Shown here one piece after another: positions 25,299 to 64,000 of a DNA stretch of 64,000 bases (position 1 is the first letter of the stretch; every line of letters starts with the position of its first letter). Source of the stretch: Metaphire vulgaris (lineage: Eukaryota > Annelida > Clitellata > Crassiclitellata > Megascolecidae); NCBI GenBank assembly GCA_018105865.1, contig CM030849.1:8476087-8540086 (forward strand), written 5' to 3'. The notes under the pieces are model-generated. The model saw nothing but the letters and a program-made list of their open reading frames with translations. It ran no database searches and had not been told where the DNA came from. The position numbers and the translations under genes are program-made.

Positions 25299-27280
25299 TA
25301 ATAATAACATCTTAGATCAGCTGCGGGTTTGAGAGCGCAAATTGAATTTCGTCAGATCTGAGATCAATCCTTTGTGTTATATTAAATATGCTATTTTGTT
25401 GCGTAAATGCATATTCATGACTCAATTAACGTGCTTTCTAGGAAATATTTATTGTAATTGCATGACTTGGTTGCTCCTGTTAGCGAAAGGTCTAACAGTT
25501 TCCTATGCTTTTATTGAAGACCTACGTTCAGGACGTTATTTTGGAACAGGTTTGTCCGAAGACCCGTCGCTTCCAGAAACAGGTAGAATTTTGGCAACAA
25601 ACCTCTTTGCATTAGTGACGGTATTATATTAGAGATTTTATCTCTAAAGATAATCGATTTCCGAGCTGCTTATATTGTGATAGAGACGTGGACAATTGCC
25701 GGCGATCCTTGTCTTTCTACGCAGAAACTCTGCATTAATCGTATCGCGTCTACGGCTCTTCTACAGTTGACTCAAAAGTGTCAATAGTGTCTACAGCTGT
25801 TTACTTGTAGTTTTGAAGCTGTTTTTCATTTCGGGGGAGGGGCCAGAGAGTAGCTAGGGGGCTGTCCATTAATTACGTCAGCAATTTAGGGGGAGGGGTT
25901 TGGAAAAGTTTGACAGTTGTTGACAAGGGGAGGGGGGTCAAGAGAAGTTGACGTCAACAATTTCACTTTTTTCAAATAATCAAAAAACAGGAAATTTCAT
26001 AGAATACTACTTATTACAATGGAAAAAAGCATTAGAAAAAAGTTCATCACCACCACATTTTGACACTCGATGAGGAAAAATGGTCATTACTACACAAATA
26101 ATAACCTTGTTATTGGGACCTGTCTTTGATCTTGAGGGGGGGTCAAGAGTTGTTGACGTAATTATGAGGGGGTTAAGTGAAAGTTGACAGTTGTTGACAA
26201 GGGGGAGGAGGTCAAAAATTGCCCAAACATTGTTGACATAATTAATGGACAGCCCCTAGAGTGTCCGGCGCCCGGGGACAAATCATACTGATAGTGCCCC
26301 TCAACCTCACGAAAACCCTGACAAGCGAATAAAGGTCGTTTCAACTATATTTATGCTTCTTTTTGTTGTTTTTTGCTACAATAAACCCGATTTTGGCGCC
26401 CCCCCCCACCTCGGCACCTGGGACATATGCACCCCTAGTTACGCCTCTGGAGGTATATGGTTGCATGAACAAAGAAAATATATGAATATTGTGCGGTCTT
26501 TTTTAATTGCTCGTAGGAGATCCCCCGAAAATGTCGATATCCCCCTATTCCGAAACCATGGTCGTTACGCCACTGCTGCCCTTTGAAAATTTTGCTCCGA
26601 AGTTTCGCAATCAATCAATAAGTCACTGAATTTAGAGATATTTCACAAACTCTTAGCTTAGATTAGCTGTGCCTATAACTGGAGTCTGAGTGTCATCGCA
26701 AGAATGTAGCTATATATCTTCTTCTTCGATATTGTAGTGCGAGGAACTGACGAAAAACTATCTTCCATCGACCGTCAAATTGCTCCTAAGCATGATCGTG
26801 AGTCGTTATTTGTAACTGTTGACTTTGTTCTGTCTAATTCCCTGTGAACGTCTTGGGGCGACAGAATTGAGTTCTTTGGTCATAATGCAGTAGTCGTTTG
26901 CCACTCTCGCTATGCTAATTTTCATTATCTATGAACTTCTATAGCGCCAATTCCAATACTCCGAAGTATCAATCGATGATACTCCAAATCCATGCGCCGA
27001 AGGTTAATTCCGGAAATCAGTGAGACTGAAGAAGCAGCAAGGCAGACTGCGGATAAAAAGAGAAACCGAAAAAGACGTTATTTAACTCTAGATTCTACAG
27101 TACACGGCAAAAGCATCCTAAAACTGTGTGAATTTCGTCATGTAATCAAGGTACTACATGACTGAAGAAAGTCAAGTTGTACTTCGACGCATACAACAAC
27201 TCATGGGCTCAAAATGATTAGTAATAGCTGATGCTGGTGTTATATGTCACTTGCCACTCTAAACTGGTGGGCAAATAAGT

Positions 27281-27340
<60 letters not shown>

Positions 27341-28610: not shown

Positions 28611-28689
28611 ACCTTGTCAGGGACTAGTAGTTATCTCAACAATGGCGATTGGATAAAACAATCAATGTCACGGGTCAAGAATGCAAAGC

Positions 28690-28695
28690 AATAAA
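28690..28695 (+). terminator. AATAAA poly(A) signal of saposin-like gene
   Basis: First AATAAA after the stop codon, 80 bp downstream, which is a plausible distance for a short 3' UTR. Confidence 0.45.
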
Positions 28696-29268
28696 AATGG
28701 CAATTATTGTGGCAAAGTGGACGCTATAGCCGATATAAATTCCAGGACCTTAGTAAGGACCTCAATTATCTGGTCCAAAAATGCTGACGGCATTACGTCT
28801 ATGGTGATACAAGTTATTTGGGGTATTTATATTGAAGCTGAGGCGTGGGGTTTAGAGGGTGGGTCATTTAGAAGGCCAATCGACGTTCTTCAGTAGAATG
28901 TGGCGCTTCCGATTGGTCATTTAGTCCACCTGCAACAATAGACGGCGCGCCAATCTCAAGTGAAACCAAGACTTCTATTGTAATTAGTATGGAGCGAATT
29001 GAGCTTCGTTATTGAGGCGGCGGAGCATGAGTATATTGTGGTTTTTTGAACAGGTGTTTATAGGACAAATATTCATACATTTTCTATAAAATTTGCTTGT
29101 CTTGATCGGTCACTCATTTTAGTAGCTAGAGGAAGCAGAAAAATGAATCCAAGATCCGTATAAGCTAAGATATTTGGCATTGAACTAAGGACGTCATATG
29201 ACGTCCCTAGCGCCCTGAGAAACCAAAATAAGGACGTCAGTTGACGTCCCTAGCGTTCAACGTGTTAA

Positions 29269-29572
29269 CTTGTGTTCTGCTCTTTGGAAAATTTTGCACT
29301 GAAACCTCACTTTATCGCAATTCAATGAATCATTCATGAATGGTCTCACAATTCGCATCTTCTTATTGGTTATTGTGCGCAAATCATTTTACATATTTTC
29401 GATCACTGTTCATTGTTCAAGATACGTTGGCGTCATTGTCAGGGTTCTATTCTTATTATTCGACAGAATTTGACTGCTTCGAAATGCGAGGTTTGCAAAC
29501 GGTCCCTCACGTTCATCCGAGAAGCGCTTAAGTCATTTCGGGTAAATGTTACATCAGTTACATAATAGGTTA
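29269..29572. other. Intergenic DNA, nothing recognised
   Basis: No coding signal or repeat was seen. Confidence 0.5.
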
Positions 29573-29657
29573 CATCAGTGGTTTTCACACAGGCTTACTT
29601 AGCCTCCTAAAACACTTAAAATCACATTATTATTGTTATTGTTATTATTATTATTAT
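29573..29657 (+). mobile_element. 5'-truncated LINE 3' tail
   Basis: The sequence from TACATCAGTGGTTTTCACAC through CCACTTAAAATCACATTATT-like bases is the reverse complement of the tail of the LINE at 12053-13115. Only about 65 bp of element remains before the simple repeat. Confidence 0.75.
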
Positions 29658-29870
<213 letters not shown>

Positions 29871-29895
29871 CAGTGTTGTGATCAAGTCCTTTCTC

Positions 29896-30420
29896 TGGAA
29901 GTCCAAGTCCAAGTTCAAGTGCAGGACATTCAAGTCCAAGTCCAAGTGAGGGACCGTCAAGTGCAAGTCCAAACCGTGAAGTCCGAGTCCAAGTCCAAGT
30001 CAGAGCGTTCCATTTTAAACAAAGCATCAACCAGTGACAACCACAATAATTTCGTTCCATGCAGTGTTGCCACTCTGATGTTTTAATAAAACTACATTCG
30101 GGCATAAAACAATTAAAAAATTAAAATTTGCCAGACGTTTTTGATAATAATTCAAATTAGGAAATTTATAAGTTATAACATAACCTTTATATCAGTAAAA
30201 TGATAAGATCACTAAAATTATTATAATATTATATTAATAATATTAATAAGTTAAGCAGTTTAACATGAGAACCAAGTCCTCTTTCTGGAAGTCCAAGTCC
30301 AAGTCCAAGTCTTTGATCATCAAGTCCAAGTCCAAGTCTAAGTCCGGAATCGTCAAGTCCAAGTACAAGTCCAAGTCCGCAATTTCTGGACTCGAGTCCG
30401 CTTCAAATCCAAGTCCAAGT
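29896..30420. repeat. Two blocks of TCCAAG hexamer minisatellite
   Basis: Degenerate AAGTCC/TCCAAG units fill 29896-29998 and 30288-30420, separated by about 290 bp of AT-rich DNA. The second block runs directly into the first unit of the 845-bp array. Confidence 0.9.
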
Positions 30421-45304: not shown

Positions 45305-45313
45305 TATATAAAA
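45305..45313 (+). promoter_or_regulatory. TATA box of amidase gene (copy 2)
   Basis: TATATAAAA lies 30 bp before a presumed start site near 45335. A short non-coding leader runs to the donor CATCAA|gtaaga at 45390. The coding exon follows after a 773-bp intron. Confidence 0.6.
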
Positions 45314-45334
45314 GTGTCGGCCAGACACTTTTAG

Positions 45335-48300
45335 TATCGACGGAAGAATATCTGGCCCGAGTGATCGTTTTTCTGTCTCCGGGCATCAAGTAAGAGAATA
45401 TTTGCTAGCACTGTTTACTTCATTTTTGGAAACTATCTTCCACTTTGTCACGATGCAATTAGTGGCTCGTAAAGTGAATGTTGGTAGCAGTGGCGGCTCC
45501 ACGCGGGGGATGAGTGTGGATGCATCCCTCACCGGACTTCTTCTTTATTTTGCTTGTCAAAAAACCTATTTTTGGAAAGGTGTTGTAAAACTACAGGGGA
45601 AAACTAAGGATGACCTTTTTCGCTTGTTAACCTATTTTTCGATAAAAGTGTAGTAAAATTAGAGAAAATTTCCATTTTGTCAGTCTTTTATCGGCAAAGT
45701 TTATTGATTTTGCCTTATCTTTTCATCCTCCACCAATCCCCCACCAACTTTCTATGAATTAATTTCATTCCCCATCAAGAAATCCTGGAACCGCCACTGG
45801 TTGATAGTTGGAATGAGCTGATATATACAGTATATCGTGTACTTGTAAAAATCTTTATTCTAATTAATTCTGGTAATATTAAATTTTGATTAGATGATGT
45901 AGTCAATTAAGCGACTAGTAAAACATATTCAGTCCTAATTATCGCTCAGTAACAGTATACTCTAGACATCTGCAAAGCGACGTAGCTGAATAATTAGTAC
46001 AATAGTTTAAATATAGTATTGCTGATTTCGCTTAAAACTAACTGTTAGTAGTCATCCGCTATCAAAAATATCACTAATAAACAAGGTATTTTGTTTCTTA
46101 CGGCATATGAAATTTCGAAAGTGCTGCTTCTAATGTTGAAGTCTGCGAATGTCTGTGTTCAGGTTCGCCATGAAACTGGTCTGGTTTCTCGTCGTCGTTT
46201 CACTGGCTGCCGTTGCCCAGTGTGACATCACCGGCATGAACCTCACAGCTGGTGACTGCCTCTGCATCAGCGCAGATGAGGTCGATGAGGCCGATGTCCG
46301 ATCATCGGGTAAGCTTCAACGCTTCTAGAAGTATTTCTGTCGTTCGCATGTAGTGTCTATGGTGGACTGAGGAAGGAGGAAGGAGGAAGAGGATCAGGCT
46401 GCTTCCGGACCTCGGGAGTAAGTGAGAGATCACAAATTCACCTTGGACTAGAGGAAAATAAGACCGTGAAAGAGATCAACTGATATAATTCACTTATTCA
46501 TGGCCTATGAATACGTTGATGATGGCGATAATGTTGGTTGTTATTGCGATTACCGCGATGCAGATGACGATAATAATGATGATGATGCCAGACATAGGCG
46601 GCGCACTCCTATCGGCCCCGTCGGCCCAGGCCGGGGTACTTTTGAAGGTACCCCGGCCCGCCATAGGTCGGGCCGGGGTACTTTTTAGGAAGTAAGAACT
46701 GAAGAATTGCGATTCTTTAAATTGTTTGGTTAAATTCTCACTTCGAATTTCGAAAAAAGCCGCTGTCGCTGGAGGGCGAATGCTCTGCCGAATAGGGCTT
46801 TATAGTTGCAAGATCAGATAAGATCAGATAGGCATGTCATATTCTCATTTAACCAGAAGGCGTCAAACACGGCAGTCATAATCTTATTAGATTACACAGC
46901 TGCTGTCGCGGGAGGAGGAACGCACTGCCCAATAAGGCTTCATAGTAGAAAGATCAGATAAGATCAGGCAGGGTCATATACACCTTTAACCTGAGGTGTC
47001 AAACGCAGCAGTAACGTACGTCTATAAGTTAACATTAGATTAAAAAGACGGCGGAAGGCCCTTTGACGAACCAAGTGGAGAGACGGTGGGCGAAAAGGCG
47101 AAGGGCAGCAGAGGACACCAGGAAGCAGTAGAGGGCGTTAGAGTGTTTCACCGAGAGATGGCAGTCGGATTTGGGTCCCGATCGAAAGTGATCAGTTAGA
47201 GCTTCACCGTGTTTGCATAAATTGCGGAAAGCAATGTAACGACTTCAGGGATTGATTCAATCGTTCAACAGACAACAGCGCTTCGCCATCGACATAATGG
47301 ACAAGTTTGTTGTTAAACGTCGTAAACTGAATGTCGAAGACCCTGAACAAACTGTAAGTACTTCAGATACAACATCTGCGCAAATTATTCCATAGTGATG
47401 AGTGTAGGCCTAGGACTATGCTACGAAAAACTATAATCGTATAAATCTCAACACTAGACATGGTCACCCCCAAGATTTATGGGACTCCCGAGTTGTTTTT
47501 CGCCATAGTTTTCATCCTTCCCAATCCTATTGTATGGAGCCTTATTCTTGATTTTATATCTTCTTGCTGACTGCCTGTGCTTTCAATCACACCTTCAACA
47601 CATCTGAATGGCCTGACTCTTTCCGTGTTTTTGTCCATTCATTGTAATATTCACGATTTTTGTATTCCCTTTCGTTGTGTCCATCACCCTTGTTTTTGTT
47701 TCACTTATTTGTAGCCTAATCCATAGTTTTGCCTGTATTACTCACAGGTTACGTCGTTATCGCCTAATAACATAAATGGTTCAATTGAAGAAGATCTGAG
47801 ACACTTTGTATTAATTCTAAATGCAAATCAACCTACTGATATACAGTATCTGTATATCCGACAAAGTTAGATGCAAAGAAACTTCGCACGATAAAAACCT
47901 TCTTAAAACGTTTCTTTTGTTATAAATCACAATTGAATATGCATTTTGGCTATCTAGCCTACTGTAAGTTAGTTAGGCACCTCGACCCTCAACGACCGCT
48001 GCCGTTATATAGTAAACGGGCCGGGGTACTTTTATTGTCTTCCGCCGCCTCTGATGCCAGATGGGATACTAGCAGCAAGATTAAAGTGATCCTTGTACGT
48101 GTAGATGTATAAGGTGCCCATATCATTAACTATTGAAACATTTTCAAAATTGAATTGATCGTCTGGTTCCATAGCACTTGTAAAGAGCAGTAGTTGCTTA
48201 TAATGTCCATGTCATTCATTGTGATTCCTGGAATGACCCGGTCTTTTGCTGATGAATTTGAAATACCATCGATTGATAATTTTAGAGTAGTAGAAATGGT

Positions 48301-49099
48301 GCTATAAAAGTGCATAATTATTATTGCATGCCCATATGTACAAATTCAAAGCCTGTGGTGATGTTATCGGTTCTGTCGGCTCCGGTCATTGCTTCAAATA
48401 CAACGGACAGAGATCTGTATGCGCTCTGGAAAAAGGCAAGACTTTTTCCAGATCAATTGGAACGACAAGGCGAGTTTTGTTCTAAGCCATGACTGTCATT
48501 TTCTCAACTGTAGCCTCATTTCAGTCTAATATGGCATACGACAGTGGGAGAGGTCTGGTCTAGTACTTTTTCATAAGCTCATAAGCATCTTTCAATTTTA
48601 ATAGACGATTACGTTCTCTTTGATGAATTAAGCAATAACATTCAAGAATTCTTGACTAAAAGGACGATGAAGATCAGTCTTACGGCTGTAAGATGGCAGC
48701 AGCGTTTGGTCGCAGACTGTGTGCCACTCTTATAATTATTGATTGTCAAGATTGAAGCAGGATGATACGAAGATGGTGAAAATCGATGACTTTTTGTTGG
48801 CAGGATGGTTGGTTGTCTGGTCTTCATCTGAATCTTGCATCTGAATCCAATTGCGAAGGTAAGTTCAATTGGTTTTATGAATGGGAACAGGTCTGTTTCG
48901 AGGGGGAATTCCATACTTTCCATACTAATAGATAGATTCTATACTGGAACTCCCTCCCGGAGGAAATAACTAGAGAGATCACCCCAGACCTATTTGCACT
49001 GAAACTGAAGACGCACCTTTTTGGGGCTTCCTACAAAATGTCTCTGTGAAGCGCTCTTGACTATAGCCTTCGTCAGCCATACAGCGGTATATAAATTGT

Positions 49100-49165
<66 letters not shown>

Positions 49166-51863
49166 GCGGCGATCTGTGTGTTGTGTGACAACACATTACC
49201 TCGAGCTGATCCCATCGACTAATATAAGAAAGGCAAAAGCTGATTAGAGAAGCGAGTAGCCAATCTGAACAGAGAAACAAAGCAACCTAGTGAAAAATAA
49301 TATTTCATGTCATTTTCAGATAAAAAGTCATTAAGTCATTACGTTATTAAGTCATTATGTCCTCCGTTCGCTATTAATTAGCGACAAAGGCGGGCCCAAT
49401 CTGTAAATGCTGGACTCAAACAAAAATGATTCAAGTCACAGTAACGACCTTCTTCGTTTCCGTCTTCGTTGTTACCTACACGCGCAAAGAGCGAAAGACG
49501 CGTAACATAAGGGTGGACCCATTCAATTGCAGGTCATTTTGTCATTAGACGCTGTGGTTAAATCAAAGGCGCCGCTCTTTTGACAAACCGCCACAGGCCC
49601 GCCTGGAGGGGGATCAGAGGACAAATGCCCATGCGCGGCCAGGCGATTCCTAGAGACTCCATAAACTTACCTCATATATATAGAGTATGTTGGCTTACTG
49701 GTCTTGTGAGCGCCCGGGATGGACAAGCGATTCAACAGGGCTGACATGAGGTAGAAAAGTCTTGAAAGGTCTTGACAGGCGAAAGAGGTCGTCCAGGGGC
49801 CCAGATTTTTTTCTGTCGACGGGCATGAACCGCCGCCGTCAATACTTGTCAGCAATAATTATTTGCGAGATAATTACATAATAAGACTTGCATCTGCTCC
49901 ATTTGCGTCGAACGCAAAATTAGCAAAATGTTGGTCGCATATTCAAGACATGAATTAACGCTGTACTATATGTAATTAACTAAATATGCTCACGTGCTCT
50001 GGTTCCAATGACCGTCTAGACTTGCTGATGTTCTAACCTAGACTACAAATTGGCAATAACAAGGTTTGCAAGGATTGCTCTATTTTCTAACCCGATTCGT
50101 GACATTAGACTCGGTCAGTGACACTGTCACGTCAACCACTGTCACGTCAACCACTGTCACGTTAACGAATCCGTTCACTTATAGAGTAGCTTTTATGAGA
50201 CGCGAATGGTTTTGCTGTTGTCAATAACTCGTACACTCGTGACTTTAATTATGACTGTATCAGATCAACTATTCAATATCCGACAAACAACGTGCTGTGG
50301 CAGGAACCTAAAATTCGATAAGGAAGAAGCAATCTTAATACATGAAATGAACAATTAATTGAGACGCACGTCCAATTGCTAAATAAAACGAAGAGATTAG
50401 GACTTCTGTTTAAAATCTGAATGACGCCATCTAATTAGGAAATAATGCAATTAATTGTGTCGTTCTGTTGGTCTAATTACTCGACGATCAACTGGACCCA
50501 CAATTTCCCTGATTGACATCCTTCAATTTTAAGATTTACAAATGTGTGCTTTTCGCATAAATGATTCAGTTTATTTCTTAGAGTACGCATTGCAGTAAAT
50601 TTGAATTTGTTGACAGACAAATCCTATGAAATCTGCCTCTTCTCGACACTGAGCTGGAACAATTCAGCCAACTGAATGCATGAAAATCGAAATGAAGATA
50701 TTGAAACACAACCCTTTAGTGAAAGTTAGCAGGGGCGCAAAGCTAGTAGAGTGCTAACAACGTTGAACTAAAGAGCAGAAGGTCGCTGGTTCGATGCCCG
50801 CAGGAGCCCTAGGGTCGACTCGGCCTTACTCACTAGAGGGCAGTGGCAAAATGAGTGGCAGCGGTAGACGCCGCTGCGTAAAGTCAAACAGGCACGCTAC
50901 GCGATGCGCTCGCTAGTCCCGTATTCCTTACGTATTGCACGCCTGGCTGAGAGCTATAGAAACGGAGATCAGCACCGCCCTGTGAGAACGTAGCCAAGGG
51001 GAGGTTTGGGGGTTAAACACTCTTGGCTGTTCGACCTGAAAATTTTTGTGTTATTACACAATATTTATTTTCGGGCGCGGCTTTGGGGGCTAAACCCCCA
51101 CTTGGCTGCCCGACCCCAACGTTTCTTAGCGCTATAGAATATAACAGCTAGCTGCATTTAAGGTGGCGATCTTTTTTGCTTGTTCGCATTGGAAAGGAAA
51201 GCAACAGAAGAAATCACCGTAGGCTGACTTTTTTTGCTTGTCAAGATTTTCAAAGCTGGGAATGTTCATAACCCCCCTTTCGAAAATCCTGGATACGCCA
51301 CTGTAATCTGTCACTCTAAACGTCCATCTAGATTCAAAATAACCCGTAACTTCGAAAGAAGTTTACCAACGTGCAACGCTATTGCATACTGTATATATCA
51401 CAATAGCCACCAGATATCCAGTTTGAACGTGTAATCGTCTGCAGTTGTTTGCTGTTGGAAGGAGTGTCTGCAGCCGGTGAATACACTTGCCAGTTGAGAG
51501 CCGGTGGGATGCGCATCCACGAGAGCAGGCGGTCGACTCCATACGATTGCAAGGACAAGGGATGCCGGAATACGTGCAAAGGCGGTCAGTGTGTGGCGTA
51601 CGTGACTTGCAGCTGCAAAAGAAATGGACGATGGGCTCCTAGCACTGGATGCTGGAGAAGAGGAAGGACAGTCAAGGTCAACGAACAATATTCTATAGGC
51701 TAATAGTCTTAATTACATGAACAGTCGTATGATGAAACAAACTATGGGGGGATGTTAACAGTACACGGAATGGCCTTAGATTACAAAGGGGAAGCTTTTA
51801 AATACACTGCACAATGCACATCTAATCATATTAATGTCTTCCTTTGTTTAGTTTGCGATGGCC

Positions 51864-51932
<69 letters not shown>

Positions 51933-52634
51933 GTAATAGGTACGGTACGGTATGGTATGGTATGGTATGGTATGGTACGGTATGGTACGGTGCGGTATGG
52001 TATGGTATGGTATGGTATGGCACGGTATGGCATGGTATGGCATGGTATGGTATGGTGTGGTGTGGCGTGTATGGTATGGTCAACCGCCCACGCTTAACGC
52101 ACGGTTCTCACAATGCCAATTCGGTTCGTTCCAGTCTCTGTCTCAGGACGACGTGGCATCGGTGATTCGAGCACTGCCGGACAAGCAGTGCGCCAGCGAC
52201 GACCCTCTACCGACATTTCTTCTCAAGGAATCATCCGACCTACTCGTACCTTTTATCACCGAGCTATTTAACCGTTCGATTGTCTGCTGGAATCGTACCG
52301 ACGACTTTCAAGTCCCCTACATCATTTCCAGACTTAAGAAACCCAGCTTGGATGCCGACGACATCAGGTCGTACAGACCGATTTCCAACTTGACAGTGCT
52401 GTCGAAGCTACTTGAGCGGCTCGTCTCTAAACAACTTATTACAAAGTTACAGATAACTCGTGCGATATAACCATGTTTTAAGTCTCTCTTTAAAAGTATT
52501 CAAGGTCGTAGAGAGCTGTATTGATGGCGGTTGACAATTCCATGCCCGAGCCGCAGCCATGGGAAATGCTCGATCCCCGACGGTTCGGAGGCGCGTCCTC
52601 AGGACCACCAATAAGGCGGATCCGGCCGATCTCA

Positions 52635-52688
<54 letters not shown>

Positions 52689-53533
52689 CATAGTGGACTT
52701 GAACTTCTTTATCAGATGGTGTAGAGAAGGAGGGATATTTAATTAACCTCCTTGAGGTTACATTCTCTGGCACTTTTCCATGCAAAAAGCGTTCCGTGCA
52801 TTCCTTACAATGCTTCCGAAGGACCGTCCCATATGTCACACTATTCAGCGGCGAACAATGGTTCGCTCCTTTGGCCGAATTGCATTGGATATTGGAATGC
52901 CAATAATTGGCTCAGAGTGTCCACTAAGAATACCTCGTGTGACACAGACCGCGGCTCCATTTGGTTGGGCGTGTCACCAAAACAATTAAGTGGGTGGTCA
53001 CCTCCTGCTCCTGCAGCTGCACCTGCTCCACTGGAGACGTAGACAAAAGACGACCGTGACACGTCCTTAACGCTATTAGTTTCAGAATTCTCCGACGACC
53101 GCAACTCGTCGTTTTAACGCTAGGAAGGTTAAGAGAAGAAGATTATTGAGTTAAATCTGTTTTTCTATCGCATGCAAACAGGGAGCGAACGGAATGTGTA
53201 ATAGAAACATTGCAGCGAATACAGCGATCGCCACGTTCAATTCGCAGGGACGCTACTATGGTCACGCTGCAGTATTCATACGATGCTTAAACGACTACAC
53301 TGTCCAGGTACTTTGCCACTATAGATACATGAAAATTTAATATTAAAAGGCTATTACTGGATATCAAACTCTGGAACTTCATTAGGTAAGATCGATCTGT
53401 AGATAAAATAATCACTTTACGACTCGTGTTTGCGCAGACCTTTCTATTTCTTGCGATTTCAGTTTAAATTCTTAGCGTGAAAAGTAGAAAATAATAGTAG
53501 TAATAATAATATTATTATTATTTATTATTATTA

Positions 53534-53593
<60 letters not shown>

Positions 53594-54296
53594 GTGCACT
53601 TCTGTAGCACCATTTCTAATACCCATGGCCCATGGGTATCAATCGATGGTAATTAAAATCCATCCGGAAATGACCAGGTCATTCCAGAGATCAGTCAGTG
53701 GGAAACAGCAAGACAGACTAAGGTCTAAATGAAATCATAGCATCGAAATGTCTTTTTAAATTTATTTTTCTATAATGATTAGCAACAAGTCATAAAGATT
53801 AGGACCAATCATTAGATTAAGCTTATTTAAACGAACTGTGTCATCTTAATATCCCAGCCTTCAGCTATCTACAAATAGGGGTAATCGGAAAATATTCTAA
53901 AATTGAATCACTCAGTTAATCTCCAGTCAAATTTGAATTTATTGCTGTCATATTAGTAGTCAATACATTCTTGATCTTGTCGTTACGTCATCTATGCATT
54001 ACTATGAAAAGCATTTAGGCCTACTTTGTTTTTTATGCGATAATCAATTTATTATACTGTAGGTTTACGATCAAGGCTGTTGCAAAAGCATTGGATATGC
54101 TAAGTACGGCTCGTCCCATCGCTTCTTCAAAGCATTTGCGACCATAACCAACCCTGGCTGCGGGGACAGAGCTTCGTGGCCATGTCGTGTCGAAAGAGCG
54201 GGGTCTACCTGCTGCCCAATCTCTGTTCCTGGCTGCAGGCGAGCAAAATATTGGTGGGATGCGATGAATCAAGAGGAAGACGAAGCTCCAATCTAA
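45335..54296 (+). CDS. Secreted NlpC/P60-like (BPSL0067-like) amidase, gene span (copy 2)
   Basis: Proposed exons: leader 45335-45389, then 46163-46308 (coding from 46170), 51474-51676, 53182-53307 and 54063-54296. The coding parts sum to 702 bp, an open frame of 233 codons plus stop, with compatible phases (1, 0, 0). Seen: signal peptide MKLVWFLVVVSLAAVAQ, Cys-rich N-terminal region, GGQCVAYV (catalytic Cys), NTAIATF, GRYYGHAAVF (catalytic His), VYDQ, then a Cys-rich tail. This motif order is that of NlpC/P60-like cysteine hydrolases of the BPSL0067 type, which are expected to cut peptidoglycan peptides. Joining 46308 to 51474 is the weakest step (5.2-kb intron); the first coding exon could belong to another gene. 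Confidence 0.65.
45488..45799. mobile_element. hAT MITE in amidase intron 1, TSD GTTGGTAG
   Basis: The ends CAGTGGCGGCTCCA… and …GAACCGCCACTG are flanked by GTTGGTAG (left) and GTTGATAG (right), one mismatch in eight. Confidence 0.88.
46170..46308 (+). CDS. First coding exon: signal peptide plus SH3b-like start
   Basis: ATG follows the acceptor tgtgttcag (exon from 46163). The leader is hydrophobic with a cleavage-like AVAQ|C. AGDCLCISADEVDEADVRSS then resembles the first strand of bacterial-type SH3 (SH3b) domains (C…A..lnVRSs). The exon ends TCG G|gtaagc in phase 1, which fits the exon at 51474. It lies 2.3 kb outside copy 2 of the duplication, so a matching exon for copy 1 would lie beyond the window's left edge. 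Confidence 0.7.
46593..48053. mobile_element. Non-autonomous hAT element, 1461 bp, TSD ATGCCAGA
   Basis: The ends CATAGGCGGCG… / …CCGCCGCCTCTG are inverted and flanked by ATGCCAGA at 46585-46592 and 48054-48061. Inside are two diverged copies of a roughly 125-bp block (about 46757-46880 and 46905-47015, each with AGATCAGATAAGATCAG), a short transposase-like first exon (47297-47353), and the single-copy version of the satellite sequence (47347-48053). It sits in the presumed amidase intron 2. Confidence 0.95.
47297..47353 (+). pseudogene. Possible hAT transposase first exon relic
   Basis: ATG opens MDKFVVKRRKLNVEDPEQT and ends at a consensus donor (ACT|gtaagt). Short basic MDKF(L/V)…KR starts are common in BED/ZMYM-related hAT transposases. 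No later transposase exon is present, so only the start survives. Confidence 0.45.
48062..48642. other. Single-copy DNA before copy 2 of the duplication
   Basis: No exon was recognised. A TATAAAA at 48303-48309 has no leader or gene that I could recognise. Confidence 0.45.
48643..49102 (+). mobile_element. LINE 3'-end remnant (copy 2)
   Basis: Here the C-terminal frame is intact: WNSLPEEITREITPDLF then LKLKTHLFG near 48945-49026, before a (TAA)n tail at 49103-49163. Confidence 0.65.
49103..49163. repeat. (TAA)n microsatellite (copy 2)
   Basis: About 20 units. Confidence 0.95.
49164..50731. other. Amidase intron DNA, nothing recognised (copy 2)
   Basis: Matches 520-2089, including the three-unit 15-bp repeat. 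Confidence 0.5.
50732..50990 (+). mobile_element. tRNA-derived SINE (copy 2)
   Basis: Counterpart of 2090-2345, with the same A- and B-box sequences and a few substitutions in the body. Confidence 0.75.
51474..51676 (+). CDS. Amidase exon 3 with catalytic Cys motif (copy 2)
   Basis: The exon follows tgtctgcag, starts in phase 1 (CC GGT GAA) and encodes YTCQLRAGGMRIHES, then CKGGQCVAYVTC, APSTGCWRRGRTVK. G(G)QCVAYV is the nucleophile motif of CHAP/NlpC/P60-like hydrolases. The donor AAG|gtcaac is weak but phase 0 and gives …GRTVK|GANGMCN…, which aligns with the W..G..V.G spacing of the family. Without splicing, the frame ends at TAA, 51701-51703. Confidence 0.75.
51864..52078. repeat. (TAA)n and GGTAY pentamer repeat (copy 2)
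   Basis: The TAA run is followed by about 28 pentamer units, some eight more than in copy 1. Confidence 0.95.
52080..52470 (+). mobile_element. LINE reverse-transcriptase N-terminal fragment (copy 2)
   Basis: The same fragment as 3400-3788 but in one open frame through SYRPISNLTVLSKLLERLVS. Confidence 0.87.
52447..52640 (-). mobile_element. LINE reverse-transcriptase C-terminal fragment, opposite strand (copy 2)
   Basis: Counterpart of 3766-3957 (RAWNCQPPSI, FKERLKTWLY). A (TA)n run follows at 52641-52686. Confidence 0.85.
53182..53307 (+). CDS. Amidase exon 4 with catalytic His (copy 2)
   Basis: The 42 codons between gcaaacag and gtactt are identical to copy 1 in reading. NTAIATF and GRYYGHAAVF are the diagnostic motifs. 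It ends …YTVQ and joins VYDQ of the last exon. Confidence 0.82.
53505..53750. mobile_element. (ATT)n plus retroposon tail fragment (copy 2)
   Basis: Counterpart of 4838-5080; the ATT tract is slightly longer. Confidence 0.55.
54063..54296 (+). CDS. Amidase last exon (copy 2)
   Basis: Seventy-seven codons and TAA after ttatactgtag, with the same frame as copy 1: VYDQGCCKSIG, PGCGDRASWPC, STCCPISVPGC, KYWWDAMNQ. Eight Cys in this exon suggest extra disulfides typical of a secreted protein. Confidence 0.8.
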   Translation, partial: VYDQGCCKSIGYAKYGSSHRFFKAFATITNPGCGDRASWPCRVERAGSTCCPISVPGCRRAKYWWDAMNQEEDEAPI

Positions 54297-55041
54297 CCAG
54301 CTTCCAATTTATTTCTTACTTGATGTAATAATAAGAGATATTTAAGCCATGACAACCGCTTAATCGTATTCGCAGCGTTTTTCAATTTTTAAACAGAAAA
54401 TGACTCATTGTTTTATTGGTGGTTACTAAATCGTTCAATAGACAGTTGCACCTGATTATAAAAACAGTGTGGGTCGATATAGAAGTTGCAGACAGAGAGC
54501 GAAAGGCAGATAAGGGAATTTGAACTCTTAAAAGACTGAATGTCTGAGGTGACCGTCTTAATAAGTGAAACTTTCCAACCCCGCTCCCTTTGGAAAAGAC
54601 GCTTCGTTGTAGCTGCAACAATTGCTTCAGTTGCTAACCGTGACTATGCTAGTGGTAGTTTAGCTAGGCCTATATTAAACGGATTTAGTGTTAATGCGCT
54701 TATTATAATTATCTGCAGTCGGAAAGATAAAGAAACAAGAAATTGGACGCACGAGAATGTATTCTACTGTAAACTATTTACAATGTTCTTTTGGAGAATC
54801 GACAACTTCTGGCCACAGCATGGTCATTGGTCCACAACTTCTGTTTTATAAAATTGCTATATTCGTGCAGGAAAGCATAAATATGTTTTTTCTATAAAAT
54901 AAAATTTCTTAGAACAGTCAAGAAATTGGCCCTATTTGTATTTTGATTCTTCGACTTAGTCTGGCCACAGTATGGCCATTGTAAATGACTCATTTGCCTC
55001 GTTTTTCTTGGAAAAATGATTTATCACTCATGAGGCATACC
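54297..55041. other. Spacer after amidase gene (copy 2)
   Basis: Nothing was recognised beyond the presumed 3' UTR. Confidence 0.5.
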
Positions 55042-55419
55042 CATAGGCGGCGCACTCCTATCGGCCCCATCGGCCCAGGCCGGGATACTTTTAAAAGTAC
55101 CCCGGCCCGCCATAGGCCGTGGCGAGGTACTTTTTAAGAAGAAATAACTTTCAATTTTCAATTTGTAATCTTACATTACACAAAGCCTACAATGTCGCCT
55201 AACTCTTGGTTTTTAGGCTTAAAATCAAACTTTCGGGACATCGATCATTTCTATGCCATACATTTGTAAAGATGTTGTAATTTTTTTGATTAAAAGGCAT
55301 TTTAGAAACATTTCTGTCTATTTTATAAATCACGCTTGAAAATGCATGTTGACTATAGTTTAAAGTCTATACAGTGGTAGATGGGCCGGGGTACTTTTTA
55401 TTGTCTTCCGCCGCCTATG
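55042..55419. mobile_element. Non-autonomous hAT element, TSD GGCATACC (copy 2)
   Basis: Same element and same 8-bp flanks (55034-55041, 55420-55427) as 6377-6753, so it inserted before the duplication. Confidence 0.92.
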
Positions 55420-56069
55420 GGCATACCTGCAGCTAAACCATTCGTACGGAGTGGCTTCGCTCAGCAAATCTTTGTAACTGTATCTGATCCACCAATGACT
55501 TGTTTCTTATATTACGCAGGTCGCTTTGTTAATATTGAGACCACTTTGACGCGATTGACTTTCACATTGACGAGCTAATTCATAGAACTATAGTTAGCGA
55601 TAATGGCTTCATGTTGTGGCCTCTCTTGCTATATATCTTACCAATCAAACAATCAATTAATCAAATGTTTAATCAAAGAACAGTTTGTAAGCAGTCATCC
55701 AGGCCTATTAAGTCTACACAAATAACATTGGTCAGCAGTGAAATGTTGCTCATTTAAAAAGGTCACAATCTGTAATAATTTGATGTCCTGAACACGAATA
55801 TGACCAGTACAATCTTTTTATTGGCTTTAGTTTTGAATATATTTCACATAGCTCATTTTCTATGTTTCATCGTGTAAATGTATCCAGTAGGACTGTAACA
55901 AGATGTGTTAAATAAGCCTCAAATGATGTAATATTGCGTCACCGTGCATAATACCACCATACACACATCACACGCAGTTTATTGCATCATTTTCTGATGC
56001 AATGCAGTATTACTGCCAGGAGACTGCTGAAGTACTGTAAGCTTACTGCAGTAGCGTACTATCTAAAGG

Positions 56070-56864
56070 CCAGTCAGAAAGGTTGAGCATTTAAAATATT
56101 TCAGACTACGTGGGACATCCAAAGCGCCACCAGCAGTTGGAGCCTTTCTTCACAGAGGCGGACCGAGGGGGCAGGGGGACATATGTCCCCGGGCGCCGAG
56201 GTGAGGGGGCGCCAAAATCGGGTATTTGGGTAAGTGAAATGCACAATAAAAAAGAAGAAAAACGTGCGACGACCTTTTTTGCTGGTCAGCACTATATGAA
56301 GAGGAGCGCCGTAAGAGCTGAGGGGCGCCGAAAACGATGTGACGACCTTTTTTGCTCGTCAGCAATGTTAGGGGCGCCAAAAGTACACTTTGTCCCCGGG
56401 CGCCAAACACCCTAGATCCGCCGCTGTTTCTTCATAAGGAAAGGTAATATGATATACTGTCCCGATATTGAAGGCCTCGTGAATGTTTTAGAAATCACTC
56501 ATGAGAGATTCTTCGAAACTTCGTAGACTCTTCGAAACTGAGTCTTAAGACAATGGAAATCATCTTCCATCTATTCTAGTAACTCATGTTATCCATAAGA
56601 AAGAGACGTGCGTTTGTTTGAAGCAGCTACTGAATTCCATGGAGTATAGTGCTGACGAGCAAAAAAGGTCGTCGCACGTTTTTATTCTTTTTTATTGTGC
56701 GCTTCACTTACCCAAATACCCGATTGTGGCGCCCCCTCACCTCGGCGCCCGGGGACATATGTCCCCCTCGGTCCGCCTCTGTGAAGAAAGGCTCCAACTG
56801 CTGGTGGCGCTTTGGATGTCCCACCTAGCCTGAAATATTTTAATTGGTCAACCTTTCTGACTGG
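56070..56864. repeat. Long inverted repeat (copy 2)
   Basis: Arms 56070-56296 and 56645-56864; counterpart of 7396-8194. Confidence 0.9.
56153..56426. mobile_element. hAT MITE, TSD TTTCTTCA (copy 2)
   Basis: Ends CAGAGGCGGACC… / …GATCCGCCGCTG with perfect TTTCTTCA flanks at 56145-56152 and 56427-56434. The reverse-complement flank TGAAGAAA also follows the partial copy in the right arm. Confidence 0.93.
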
Positions 56865-57933
56865 TCTATAGCACGTAGGCCAAAAGCTGGCGCCTCTATT
56901 GTAGAAAACCTTTTAATGGGACCGCAGGAGGAATACACACTGGGTTAGCTGAATAAGGGAATAATTATTGATCTCCGGAAGTCTCTGTCAACTCATTAGT
57001 GGCAATACCTAATCAGAAAACATTTGCAGGCTTTTTGTCAAATGTTAGTTTTCTTCCTTCTACAAATCTTTCTTTGAGATCTTCTTTTATGTTGTCTACC
57101 TACCAATTTTATTTCTGGGCCTGTCTCTGCCTTTTTTTACCTCCCTTGTATGTGTAGAGTGCTTTTTGGGAAGTTTCGAGCCTTCCAGCCTGTTTACATG
57201 TCCATACCACGTTAGCCTCCTTTTTCTGGGTTTGTCTATGATGGTATTTTTAGCCCAATCCGCTGCCGTATCTCTTCATTTCTAAGTTTTTTAATTAAAG
57301 GGCGCTAATTCGTCATTTAATACTAAATATTTTTATTAATACCGCAATGCTATGCTACCGCAAAATTGAACGTATTTTACACTTATGATTATTATACTTC
57401 ATTTTAAAAAAGAATTTTAAAAAGTTTCTGAATATTGTTTCAACTTTAATAATTATAATGAATATTTTCAAACGAAACGTTAATTTTGACATTGGAAAGA
57501 CAAGAGGAGGAGTTAATGCGTTGTGACGTCATATTTGGGGATCTGACTTTTGTGACGACGTGTGACGAAGGGGATGGGGTAAAAACTGCCAAAATCGTGT
57601 AATGTCATTTATGGATAGCCCCTATGCATTTATATATACTGTAGATATGTACAATATATATAACAATATATATATATTATATTGTTATATATATATCATC
57701 CCTAACACTACACTCCTTTACAAGTAGGCCTAACACACAATATACAATATATAATTGTGTGCGTACGCACTCGGAGATTGAGCCTTGCAGTTTGATAATG
57801 GCTATATTAAGGCCAAAGGCTAGAAACGGGAAGTAATTAATTATGTGTCGATGCCTTGTTGACAATTTCTGCCTATGCGCTTTCTCTTTGGCCATTTTGA
57901 TATCGTACGCCTGCTTCCGGAACATAGAGCCGC

Positions 57934-57941
57934 TTTATAAG
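57934..57941 (+). promoter_or_regulatory. TATA box of saposin-like gene (copy 2)
   Basis: TTTATAAG, identical in sequence and spacing to 9265-9272. The DNA between the inverted repeat and here (56865-57933) shows no gene. Confidence 0.6.
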
Positions 57942-58066
57942 CATACAGCTAGGTCAACGAGAGAATCTGATGATCTCAGTTCTGATCTGTGATCACAAGC
58001 GTTTCATTCTGTCTGGGCTCTCTTCAGTTTCGAAGATCTGAACCAACTGGAGACGTGCAGGACAAC

Positions 58067-58103
58067 ATGCGACTGATTGCGATTCTTGCATTGACAGCGC
58101 TGG
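58067..58103 (+). CDS. Saposin-like gene exon 1: signal peptide (copy 2)
   Basis: Identical protein to copy 1 (MRLIAILALTAL), donor gtaaga, phase 1. Confidence 0.83.
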
Positions 58104-60245
58104 GTAAGAGCTTCTCTAACGTAGCAGCTACATCCGAACTCTTTCCGTTTAGACGTGAAGACTGCTTAAGTCAAATATTTACTGTTGAGATAAAAAAGAA
58201 TAAGTGTATTGTTATCGTTATCAGTGTTCTCTTAAAGGACAATCATCCCTAACACTAGACGCCTTTACAAGTAACACACCTTGTTTCTTATCGCTTTTGC
58301 TTTTAAGTGCTGACCACTTGTGTCTTTGTAAATTGTTTGGAAATGTATTGAATAATTAATCTAAAGATTTATAGACCGTTAGGCCTATTTAACAAAGTCA
58401 AGTCAATGCGCCATCGTCGCTTGGGCCAACGACCTCCATCTGCTTTATCTCGGGCAGCAGACGATCTCCTGATAGACCAACCCACATGGAGATATTGTCC
58501 AGCCAACATATCCTGGGTCAGCATGTCCTCCGACTCCTTCGACGAGTCCTGTCACTACAATGCTTTCAACGGTGTCGTGTGTTCGTCTCATCACGTGCCC
58601 CAAAGTATCTCAGCTTCCTTGACTTTACTTGATGTAGTATCTCATGGTTTGCCAAACTTTTAGGAACCGCGACTCACTTCAGCGGTTTTGTAACGTACCG
58701 CGACCCTGAAAACTTAGTGTCAACTGAAAGTGGATAAAGCACTAGTAATTTTAATATAAACTAACTAAGCGAATTTGCAACTTTGCAAGGCTAGTGACAT
58801 TATGCATGGTGTTTGTTAGAAAACGACCCTTTGGAAGCTATTTATTACACCGCGACCCATTAAACTGGGCTCTGTGACCCACTTTTGGATCGCGACCCAC
58901 AGTTTGGGAAACACTGCACTAGTTCTTTCTCTGTTTTGGTAAAATTGGAGATTGGAGACTTGTTCGTTCGTTAATAACTTTGTCCATGGGATGCGTAGCA
59001 GTTTCCTTAAGCATTTATTCTCTGATGCCTGAGTGCAGTTTTGATTATATGCGATCGCATATTTAACCAATTTTTAAATGCGCCACATTTTCTGTCATTT
59101 TTACTGCATATGTAATTTCTGCATATATGCGGAAATTATTGTATCTGCATTTTCGCTAGTTCGTCACATATACACATATAGGCCTATTGTTACTATTTGC
59201 AATTTTCCTAATAATTATAGTCAAAGATTTACAGAAGTACAGCGCCTGTTTGGATGACATGTTTTCTCGTCACTCTCGAAAACACCGCAATTTTCCGCAA
59301 ATATTTGAGGTCAAATAGGCGCATAAATGGAAAATCGTATTTCCGCCGCTTATTTAGGACCTTTCCCAGAAATTCAACGCATTAAACGCACAGACCTAAT
59401 TTATGCATTTTTTAAACAAGTGTTGGTTTATTGAAAGCAAAGTCAGCAGTGTTCATGAAATTAACTGCGGAATTTTTTCCAAATCGACTCACAATTAGCG
59501 AAATTATGCTGATAACTGTGCTGGCCTAATTTTTTTCTTACGCGGTGCAGATCAGAATCTAACTCACATTAGAAACAGTAGAGAAAATGTTGCGTCGAAC
59601 GCTTCGCTTGCTTGGTCTTTTGGACAAAGGTTTATTCATAAATATTACTGTGGTCGTACACTTGAATTCTCCACTGTACTGACTGCGCTATAATATAAGT
59701 CAATTATTTCATAATTTATCCCACTTAGGCATAATTTTTAACTATCTATATACACAGACTTTCATTTTTCTCAAACACCCGAGTTGACAACCTGGATGGC
59801 AATTAAAAGAGATCACAAAACTTTCACGTTTGCCTGAGAAAGAGGTAGAGAGATAGAGAAAGGAGAAAATTGTGCATTAAGCTTAGTTTTGACAAACAAT
59901 TTTCATGCGAATGTTTCCTTTTGTGTATGCAGAACATGATTTCCTTTTCATTCGCTGATTTGAGTCGTAGCAGTCATAACAGTCCGTCATCTAGGTTTTT
60001 TTTACAAAGGTCAATACTGGTTTTAGTCCTCTCTGTGCACTCTGGACACAAAGAAGGCCACAAAAGGAGTGTCGCTTTGGGTTGACGAGGCAGTATGATG
60101 GTTTTTAATTACCCATAGTTTCCCCCTAGACTTCCCCTTACATTTTTACCATATTTCGCTAACAATTGAGTGATTTCAATATTAAGGTAGATGACAGCTA
60201 TAGTTAAGTTTTCTTTTTCTATATCGTTTATAGTTACTATAGGCC

Positions 60246-60435
60246 CAGTGGCGGCTCTAGGATTTGGCAAGAGCGGGGCCGTTGGGGTGGCAACTTCTAA
60301 TCATGGGGGACCAACCATTTGTTGTTTAATGTATGTAGCATTAAGTATATGGTCCCAACTGGGGGGGCCACTGGGGGGCAGGTACTCAATAGGGGGCACG
60401 GGCCCTCTACCCCCCCCCCGGTGGAGCCGCCACTG
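60246..60435. mobile_element. hAT MITE, TSD TATAGGCC (copy 2)
   Basis: Perfect 8-bp flanks at 60238-60245 and 60436-60443; counterpart of 11594-11780. Confidence 0.94.
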
Positions 60436-60708
60436 TATAGGCCTATCCTGTAGCATATTGTTAGTCTTTAGTCCTCGTTCGAGTGTTTGCTTGCCAACAA
60501 GGGCAACGTAAATTCGCCAGACTTAATATCCAGACTTCCCGAAGATCCGATGTCCTTTCTTCTACTTCCTCGTCGATGTGTTTTTCCTCTGGCGTTTCTC
60601 GTTTCCGCCTTTATACTTAGCCACTACCCAGGCTGATCTCTTATTATACGCCTTTGAATAGTAAAATAAGAGGCGCTATACAAGTGTTTTATTACATTAC
60701 ATTATAGA

Positions 60709-60710
<2 letters not shown>

Positions 60711-60751
<41 letters not shown>

Positions 60752-61775
60752 TGATTTTAAGTGGTTTAGGAGGCTAAGTAAGCCTGTGTGAAAACCACTG
60801 ATGTAACCATCTGCATTCAATAACCTAGTTTATCGAGATAGCCTTTGAATCCGTTTACTGTTTCAACTATCACTCCCACCTCGTCCAAACTATTCCATTT
60901 GTCCACAACCCTTGCACTAAAAATTGTTTCTTTCTTGGACCCACCCTCTGCTTAAACAATTTGCATTTGTGGCCTCTTGTGTTGCTATAGTGTGCCAATG
61001 TAAAGAATCGATCGTATGGCACATCTACTTTCCCGCTCATTATTTTGTATGTTTCTATCAAATCCCCCCTCTCTCTCTTCTTCTTTCTAATGTTGTCAGT
61101 CCACAATATTGAAGTCTTTTTTCGTAGCTTAAATTATGACACCCATTGACCATCTTCGTTGCTCGTCTTTGCACTTTTGCTAAAAGCTCTATATCTTTTT
61201 TCAAGAATGGATTTCAAGCCTGAACACAGTATTCCAGATGAGGTCTTACTAATGACTTATAAAGTTTTATGATTATATCTTTGTCTCGACTCACTATTGT
61301 CCTTTTCATCATTTCCAACATTTGGTTTCCCTTTTTTGCTGCCTCCATGCATTGGTGAGATGGATTCATACTTATATGGATGATTACCCCCAAGTCTCTT
61401 TCTTTTTCTGTTGTGGTTAGAACCTTCCCCCTAAAGAATATTCATTACCATTATTAGACTTCCCAACATGCATTACAGAACATTTATCAATATTGAAAAG
61501 CATCTGCCAGTCCACAGACCACTGAAATAATTTCCTTAGATCTCCTTGTAAAATTTTTGCATCATCCTCCGAGTCTATATTTCTGCATATCTTTGTTTCA
61601 ACGGCAAACTTTGAAATTTTAGATAGTAATCCTTCATCGATATCATTTATCTATATATTAGAAAAAGCAATGGCCCAAGCACTGAGCCCTGAGGCACTCC
61701 ACTGATAACTCTTGCCCATTGCGAATGGCCTCCCCTAATGCCAACCTTCTGTCTTCTTCCCTTCAACCAATTTTG
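60711..61775 (-). mobile_element. 5'-truncated CR1-like LINE in saposin intron 1 (copy 2)
   Basis: Same insertion as 12053-13115, with additional substitutions and indels in the reverse-transcriptase frame and the same TAA/TTA tail (60711-60751). Confidence 0.87.
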
Positions 61776-62200
61776 AATTCATCTGAGAATATTCCCCTTT
61801 ATTCCACAGGATTAATAAACGAGCTTTACCTTCAGTGTCTTTTTGTTTTTCTTTCTTACGTGATCTATCTTCTTTCGTTGTTATGTAATGTAAAACTCAA
61901 GAATTATTTAGCGTTTGGGTTAAATTAATGAGTATACGAATCACTTTCTCCAGCGCTTTTCCGTCACATTCAAGCCCTCTTTCTCCTGTATTGTGTTGTA
62001 TTATCATGTCCTGTCTTTTCCTTTCCTGTCTTTTCGTGTCCTGTCCTGTACAGTGTTTCCATGACCGGTTGATGCGCATCCTTGATATAATTAATAGTGT
62101 GCGTCTGTTTTGACAGATACCTATTACGGCGGTCCTTCCTAGTAAGTAGGCAGCTACATCTCTCAGCATCACTGCCCACCATCGCTAGCCATGTGAAGGC

Positions 62201-62392
62201 CAGTGTTTAATCTAGGCCGTTTCCGGGGGAAAATTTGCTCTTTCCCCCCGGAAATTTCAAATTCCCACCCGGAAATTTTGGAATACTACATGGACTAACA
62301 GCGGCCCCTAGCAGAATTCCCCCCGGCTTTGTCAGTTTCCCCCCGGCTTTTTCAGTTTCCCCCCGGAGTCCATGAGTCTAGATTAAACACTG
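62201..62392. mobile_element. hAT MITE, TSD GTGAAGGC (copy 2)
   Basis: The ends CAGTGTTTAATCTAG… / …CTAGATTAAACACTG form a perfect 15-bp inverted repeat, with GTGAAGGC at 62193-62200 and 62393-62400. Confidence 0.95.
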
Positions 62393-62551
62393 GTGAAGGC
62401 TCAACGAAAGACGACACATAACACAGACCATTTTTACTTCTACTACATCGGGAGTGCTTACTTGTCATAAAGAGAGGTCGACAACCGCCTTAAATCAGCC
62501 GTTGCCGTGAAAATTTGAAAGCATTTCCGTACATAGGCTACTTTTATAGCG

Positions 62552-62554
<3 letters not shown>

Positions 62555-62615
<61 letters not shown>

Positions 62616-62616
62616 A
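62555..62616. repeat. (TC)n(TG)n before saposin-A exon (copy 2)
   Basis: Similar total length to copy 1, but with more TC and fewer TG units. Confidence 0.95.
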
Positions 62617-62641
62617 GTGACTGTGCTGTGTTTCTTTGTAG

Positions 62642-62775
62642 CTTCAACGTCGGTTGTCGCCACCGATTCTTGTGACTTGGGACCGACATTTTGGTGTGAA
62701 AATCGAGACAATGCCAAGATCTGCAGTGCCGTCGAATACTGCAATGCATTCGTCTGGGAGACTCGAAGTGTCGAG
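62642..62775 (+). CDS. Saposin-like gene exon 2: saposin-A domain (copy 2)
   Basis: Same exon as 14212-14345 with one amino-acid change after the WC motif (CETRD becomes CENRD). All Cys are kept. The remaining exons fall beyond the window. Confidence 0.83.
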
Positions 62776-63523
62776 GTCGGTTGGAAAAACAAAGACGAAT
62801 AAATGTTCCATTTCGTTGAAATATTCTCCAACTTTTAGCTAATTATGGTGTTAAAATTACGTTACGGGCAAACTTTCAACGGAGACGGATTTATTGCATT
62901 TCCATTTTATTTCCCAATAGACGTCCCTACTCTAGTCAGAGTAGCCTACTTCGAAGGTTTTGAAATTCATGAATTTGCGAGTGGTAAATCTCAGTTAAAT
63001 GTCTAGAAAATGTCAACAAAATTTCGGTTTCATTTTCTCTCCTGGAAATTCACGAGAGACTCATCCGATTGCTATTTTTAAAATCTATGCGGAAACTAGA
63101 TTTGGAAATTCTGAAGGAAGCTTAAGTAGGCCTAAGCATCGCGCATTATCTTGCCGCCAGATGTCGCAAAAGAGATAATTGCTAAAAATAAAGTCCCGTC
63201 CGACTTGAATTTGAATAGGCCTACATTTGCCTGAAAGAGAAAGAGCCTCACTCACTGCTACGAATTGGCTTTAGGCCTAATCAATACGCTACGGAGAAGA
63301 TCTCTTGCTAGTCTACGACTGATGGCGTAATTTTGAAAAGCGACCCATTTCAAAGATAATTAAGACTCAGTGGTAGTTTATGAGTTTGCACTCACTGCAT
63401 CTACTTCAAATCCTCCTCCATCATGGCGACCATTGATTGTCACATATCTTCGTCTGACCAGATGACATTTCTGTCTGCAGACGAAGCTCTCCATATTAAT
63501 CAGAAGGAGAACTACAGTAGATG

Positions 63524-63714
63524 CAGTGGCGGCTCCACCGGGGGGCCAGGGGGGCCCGTGCCCCTATTGAGTGTCTGCCCCCCCCAGTGCCCCCCTCCAG
63601 TTGGGACTCTATACTTAATGCTACATACATTAAACAACAAATGGTTGGCCCCCCTTGATTAGAAGTTGCCACCCCAACGGCCCCCCCACTTGCTAAATCC
63701 TAGAGCCGCCACTG
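63524..63714. mobile_element. hAT MITE, TSD AGTAGATG (copy 2)
   Basis: CAGTGGCGGCTCCA… / …TAGAGCCGCCACTG with AGTAGATG at 63516-63523 and 63715-63722. It is intact here and degraded in copy 1. Confidence 0.95.
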
Positions 63715-64000
63715 AGTAGATGACGATATAACAATGTCACTGTCTGAACCAAATAGAATCGTCCGTGCCAAGAGTAGCCTATATTAATTATCTCAATCGT
63801 CAAGTTTAAAACATTTCACTATATGCCCACACGTCGCTAGTATCTAAAAAGGTTCTTAACGCTCTAATCTAAACACTTTCTCGAACGCAAATACGTTACT
63901 GAAACATACTGCCGTCAATCGTCTGGAGGGAACATTAGAACTCCTGCAGGCATCGAACTCGCTTCCATCGGTTTGGTGACATTTGATCCCGCGACAGTTA

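Follow-up and report, generated by a model that had tools for sequence, protein, structure and literature searches.

Two neighbouring genes, one resembling a peptidoglycan-cleaving amidase and the other a saposin, occur twice on the forward strand of a 64,000-nucleotide stretch of the genome of the annelid Metaphire vulgaris (C18:8476087-8540086, hereafter the window; the genome comprises 728 Mb in 246 contigs). The question that this locus raises is whether the pair acts jointly against bacteria, one product attacking the wall and the other the membrane, as a sequence-only reading had proposed. We consider it likely that a family of secreted amidases of the Tae2/Dae2 type has expanded in this genome, that its members in the window stand beside a prosaposin-like gene, and that this pair was doubled by a single duplication. 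The best reading of the arrangement itself is that the amidase and the prosaposin-like gene adjoin by chance of position. The first and second copies are termed A and B, and negative coordinates lie upstream of the window.

The amidase and its SH3b exons

All four motifs from which an amidase had been proposed were found on the + strand in the claimed order in both copies: GGQCVAYV (2940 in A, 51581 in B), NTAIATF (4543 and 53218), GHAAVF (4585 and 53260) and VYDQ (5390 and 54063). The copy B exons, which span 46170-54296, yield the predicted 233-residue protein when joined at consensus splice sites. Exon 1 (46170..46308, +) encodes what appears by eye to be a signal peptide, followed by the start of an SH3b domain (MKLVWFLVVVSLAAVAQC-DITGMN...), and ends in phase 1. 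The exon with the catalytic Cys (GGQCVAYV; 51462..51676, +) begins at an acceptor at 51462 or 51474, of which the earlier is suggested by comparison of a homologue, P0002, with a related locus on contig C72. It is followed by the exon that carries NTAIATF and the catalytic His within GHAAVF (53182..53307, +) and by the last exon (VYDQ...; 54063..54296, +), which includes the stop codon. Copy A has the catalytic-Cys exon at 2821..3036 (+; start placed by homology) and the two later exons at 4507..4632 (+) and 5390..5623 (+), both identical to those of copy B.

The protein had been called NlpC/P60-like, a description that holds in part: the NCBIfam model BPSL0067_fam (NF033857) matched the 233-residue protein with 28.7 bits against a cut-off of 27, a narrow margin, whereas Pfam NlpC/P60 (PF00877) gave no match. 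NF033857 was matched by 20 of 20 family members at E <= 0.01. The predicted catalytic Cys and His, which we take to be assigned correctly from the papain-like fold, are both present in the window amidase; among 20 aligned members, the Cys is found in 18 (Ser in the other two) and the His in all 20. We infer that BPSL0067_fam and Tae2 (type VI secretion amidase effector 2; PDB 6WIN) are one family, and the Tae2 fold was recovered by profile search and by VIA-align on the structure of a homologue, the latter comparison covering the candidates that Foldseek had returned. Several observations weigh against this assignment: the missing NlpC/P60 match, together with a CHAP score of 19.6 bits that falls below the cut-off of 26; the Ser in place of the predicted catalytic Cys in 2 of the 20 aligned members; the use of a modelled structure that belongs to a homologue (60% identity, 79% of the query) and not to the window protein; the lack of any record identical to the window amidase among 19 homologue matches; and the result of Foldseek alone, which gave no PDB match at E <= 0.001 and so leaves the assigned fold dependent on the profile comparison and on VIA-align. 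A single-sequence PDB search likewise gave no match. NF033857 had no match in the worm's own genome either, which is uninformative because it had none in 14 control genomes. A predicted BPSL0067-type (Tae2/Dae2) domain with Cys and His kept is nevertheless supported.

Several amidase homologues carry an SH3b domain between the signal peptide and the amidase, and this N-terminal position is seen by fold in homologues and also in record P0002. A homologue search of the window, combined with reading, placed SH3b exons that were absent from the earlier model between exon 1 and the amidase exons. The middle SH3b exon of copy B (48352..48469, +; ACGDVIGSVGSGHCFKYNGQRSVCAL ... DFFQINWNDK) has a frame broken inside it and, by eye, a possible GC-AG donor; the last (48804..48858, +; DGWLSGLHLNLASESNCE) ends in phase 1. 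Copy A has its last SH3b exon at 162..216 (+), and its middle exon shows the same frame break as copy B, at about -290. Phase-1 introns flank the two SH3b exons that follow exon 1; as the phase at the end of exon 1 equals that at the end of the last SH3b exon, splicing could include or skip the SH3b exons with the frame unchanged. P0002, read from a 1214-base contig, aligns to C72 in five blocks almost without difference (97.6% over the SH3b middle exon), as would be expected of a spliced transcript from the same or a very close species, and it includes the SH3b exons.

Other results count against an SH3b domain in the window proteins. Both window copies have a frame break in the middle exon; the closest paralogue (13.35 Mb) loses the frame at the corresponding position, where its number of bases differs; and on the tree described below, the SH3b label requires nine changes, some rows being fragments. 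The Pfam SH3_3 model matched weakly, in 2 of 19 homologues (best E 0.037). Given the breaks in the window copies and the closest paralogue, SH3b may be lost or skipped in the window subfamily, in which case the earlier 233-residue model would be right. The subfamily may thus have dropped the domain, the genes may be decaying or the assembly may be wrong there.

That both window amidases are decaying pseudogenes is unlikely in our judgement, although the idea has a clear basis: the SH3b frame is broken in each, and since A and B share this break, it does not stem from two separate errors. Copy A moreover lacks exon 1, and its catalytic-Cys exon differs from that of copy B by a one-base indel at 2979, which also tells against a working enzyme there. 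However, the exon phases would allow exon 1 to be spliced to the catalytic-Cys exon in frame, making an SH3b-less 233-residue protein possible, and the amidase exons look constrained (dN/dS 0.255 against the paralogue, 181 codons). Copies A and B show no substitution in 634 exon bases (the C-terminal SH3b exon and three amidase exons), whereas non-exon bases differ by 1.6%, though the block diverges very unevenly, its initial 2 kb being free of substitutions in non-exon DNA too, and the binomial value of 2e-4 for exon conservation is for that reason not pressed. The broken frames may also reflect noise, as the first 2 kb of the duplication (48643-50643 versus 1-2000) differ by 10 indels and 0 substitutions, with 7 of the 10 indels in runs of at least three equal bases, which points to indel errors in the assembly.

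A single duplication and a prosaposin-like neighbour

Copies A and B form a segmental duplication that is 97.4% identical over 13.5 kb within the window, where the alignment runs on, with insertions, to the window end. When 60 kb of flank on each side was taken into the repeat comparison, the duplicated unit extended over about -2051..30416 (A) and 46593..77983 (B), in four pieces of 96.9-98.0% identity. From the amidase stop, the saposin ATG on the same strand is separated by 3771 bases in copy B and by 3775 in copy A, close to the 3.6 kb first estimated. The description of the two genes as duplicated as a unit is true insofar as the neighbourhood was copied once; it fails in that amidase exon 1 and the last SapB exon lie outside the unit. 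Exon 1 of copy B is 285 bases upstream of the unit, and genome search and flank reading found no counterpart at copy A; the repeat holding the last copy B SapB exon (80598) has no match near A among the repeats listed. As the edges of the unit omit the amidase signal exon and the last saposin exon, copy A lacks sequence at either end and probably does not amount to a complete functional pair. Upstream of copy A, at about -9.3 kb, lies exon 1 of a paralogue, whose 5' fragment (about -9.3 to -7.3 kb) might be the source of a signal peptide for copy A.

An assembly artefact in which two haplotypes were laid end to end would fit the 97.7% identity between A and B and a divergence that ranges from 0 to 6% per kb, with indel-only differences at one end, yet we regard it as improbable. 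The homology ends at breakpoints inside a 16-Mb contig, which argue against a simple haplotype duplication; among the repeats of more than 400 bases listed, none carries the alignment on into the 60 kb of flanking DNA on either side, which would be expected if these were haplotypes; and an 845-base tandem array stands at the right edge of A only. This array (30422-39217) comprises about 10.4 copies of the 845-base unit, 99.3-99.7% alike, and was not seen at the copy B edge; a 338-base portion of this unit is found again at 47343-47680.

The proposal of a saposin-like neighbour is borne out by the copy B SapA exon (62642..62775, +), which matches PF02199 at E 2.4e-12 (47 bits, cut-off 22) and is preceded by exon 1 (58067..58103, +; MRLIAILALTALG), a signal peptide by eye that ends in phase 1. 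The SapB exons of copy B all lie beyond the window end, the last one found being that at 80598. Copy A, with exon 1 at 9398..9434 (+) and SapA at 14212..14345 (+), retains more of the gene inside the window, as a phase-0 series encoding SapA and SapB modules. Module 1 has four exons, at 16226..16315 (+; SDSCQDCTKFF...), 16784..16846 (+), 18170..18229 (+) and 18522..18590 (+; DPKTVCKQVQLC, 3' end not fixed); in the first 144 residues as assembled, SapA scored 3.9e-11 and SapB_2 (PF03489), in the piece that includes the third exon, 6.1e-8 (33.1 bits, cut-off 21), with no match to SapB_1. Modules 2-4, each represented by one to three exons, were identified by pattern: the first and third exons of module 2 (19623..19688 and 22437..22496, both +), the first, third and fourth of module 3 (24693..24788, 26738..26797 and 27542..27640, all +; the last, DPKKTCTLMKAC, with its 3' end not fixed) and the first of module 4 (29452..29541, +; start approximate). 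Two such exons alone, among them the first of module 3, gave no saposin match in Pfam, the second exons of modules 2 and 3 were sought at copy A and not found, and the later exons of module 4 were not found there.

Prosaposins, which serve as lysosomal lipid co-factors, are built of SapA and several SapB domains, whereas saposin-like pore-formers typically have a single SapB without SapA. The part of the window gene recovered here, without a C-terminal SapA, resembles the former, with a signal peptide, SapA and then SapB-like modules in short phase-0 exons. Amoebapores and caenopores share the SapB fold and carry it singly and without SapA; here, SapA and further SapB-like exons are present. 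The neighbour is thus a predicted prosaposin-like precursor with SapA and about four SapB modules. It would have a role of its own, probably in lysosomal lipid handling; some saposin-like proteins may attack membranes, though these are typically single-domain ones. The peptide of the copy B exon at 80598 occurs again at 101389 and 119841, downstream of the window in a second repeated block, so that the saposin gene is itself multiplied at its 3' end.

Whether the two genes belong together can be judged from the rest of the genome, where the amidase query gave 29 exon matches, which we grouped into 11 loci: five on C18 at 8.42-8.53 Mb (A and B included), three more on C18 at 13.35, 5.62 and 6.04 Mb, two on C72 and one on C91. 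The saposin query gave 11 matches at five loci (A, B and one each on C23, C37 and C30). Because the searches score the best candidates only (41 of 41 for the amidase, 20 of 20 for the saposin), these counts are lower bounds; conversely, 11 may overcount, since C72 may be an alternative copy of the 5.62-Mb locus, with which it shares nearly identical peptides. At 9 of the 11 amidase loci the next neighbour is not a saposin match, the contigs of three of the five saposin loci have no amidase match, and stretches of 9.9 kb at each of five further amidase loci contained no saposin match. Further copies of the pair, sought across the genome, were therefore not forthcoming: the genes adjoin at A and B only, through one duplication event. 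A row of further SH3b-amidase paralogues, some of them partial, lies upstream on the same strand, from -54.9 kb to -7.3 kb.

A functional module, in which the saposin perturbs bacterial membranes and the amidase cleaves the wall, and which is retained and duplicated as one, would agree with two genes on the same strand 3.77 kb apart, but we find it very unlikely. Adjacency at 2 of 11 loci in this genome goes back to the one duplication, whose edges cut both genes in copy A, and the saposin gene is built of SapA + SapB, with more SapB-like exons beyond these. The copying of one 32-kb block, with its introns and intergenic DNA, accounts for the second occurrence of the pair, and such co-duplication says nothing on joint function. 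The idea of cooperation is not absurd, as Dae2 is reported to be unable to cross the outer membrane alone (PMC7962413); that a single animal locus supplies both halves of a kill is nonetheless most improbable.

Elsewhere in the window, a 194-codon open reading frame on the minus strand (41828-42412) encodes a strongly hydrophobic, probably multi-pass membrane protein without a Pfam match above cut-off; related DNA (85-88%) lies outside the window at 92047-93285 and 112658-113932. A very long trinucleotide repeat of about 214 GTA units (84% match) occupies 42694-43334.

Function, relatives and origin of the amidase family

The predicted amidase would combine a signal peptide, a bacterial-type SH3b wall-binding domain and a Cys-rich Tae2/Dae2 (BPSL0067) papain-like amidase domain. 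Judged by its fold and kin, it may be secreted into the gut or body fluid, where exposed peptidoglycan would be bound, by SH3b where this is kept, and Cys-His thiol attack would cut the peptidoglycan peptides, so lysing or digesting bacteria. Its nearest characterised animal relatives are the tick Dae2 proteins (PMC11347951, PMC10318531), which makes an antibacterial role reasonable. An antibacterial or bacteria-digesting function, by analogy with these relatives, is most likely; of the locus-wide claim, this half stands for the amidase, and joint action with the saposin is unsupported.

Instead of serving in defence, the enzyme may be digestive and free nutrients from bacteria that the worm eats, a possibility that we rate as substantial if somewhat short of even. 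Clitellate i-type lysozymes fused to SH3b are called digestive and proposed as markers of bacterivory (PMC11083476), and the clitellate lysozyme is cleaved before DIT, as the window signal peptide appears by eye to be. The digestive role differs from our preferred explanation in purpose alone, the mechanism being the same. The mature N-terminus DIT given for the lysozyme in that source, and the apparent DIT start of the mature SH3b in amidase exon 1, suggest a shared animal SH3b cassette that was moved by exon shuffling. SH3b i-type lysozymes of clitellates and mussels and the SH3b-PGRP of Mytilus edulis (PMC11083476, PMC3308963) likewise place a secreted animal SH3b cassette on a wall hydrolase, but their catalytic domains are unrelated to the window amidase.

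Compared with Tae2 and tick Dae2, the window family adds the SH3b domain and many cysteines (23 in the 293-residue homologue P0003). It also appears more numerous, with 11 loci here against the two Dae2 types reported for Ixodes ricinus (PMC11347951). Among the nine best Foldseek rows, eight were cell-wall endopeptidases or NlpC proteins, at weak E values of 2.5e-3 to 7e-2. The Trichomonas structures 6BIM and 6BIQ and the bacterial 2EVR and 3NPF share the order of an N-terminal SH3b followed by a papain-like amidase. Unlike such SH3b-NlpC/P60 hydrolases, the window protein has a catalytic domain of the Tae2/BPSL0067 type.

The catalytic domain is probably of bacterial origin. A search with a profile of catalytic domains returned 81 proteins, among which one was named as from the rotifer Brachionus calyciflorus and one was a BPSL0067 protein from the bacterium Roseateles. 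The unrooted tree comprised 59 rows (58 of 83 homologues and the window protein, with 25 dropped), three of them on long branches and most without a named source, its groups being set by cysteine count and motif rather than by taxonomy. A branch with support of 96/86 parts low-Cys rows, including Roseateles, from Cys-rich rows, including Brachionus, a split that fits one bacterial transfer followed by diversification in animals. Viral contigs contained no relatives. Profile A1 picked out 191 pattern stretches in GTDB genome contigs, of which 0 were confirmed, so that bacterial donors were not located by this route.

In the open-access papers searched, outside which most subscription literature lies, SH3b was never found together with Tae2 or Dae2; it is known on invertebrate lysozymes and a PGRP (PMC11083476, PMC3308963). 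The presence of an SH3b cassette on a Tae2-type amidase suggests that animals may join wall binders to wall cutters by exon shuffling, in line with the phase-1 introns on either side of the two SH3b exons that follow exon 1. An animal lineage would thus carry the fold of a bacterial interbacterial weapon (Tae2) on a secreted, cysteine-rich, SH3b-fused enzyme family with 11 loci.

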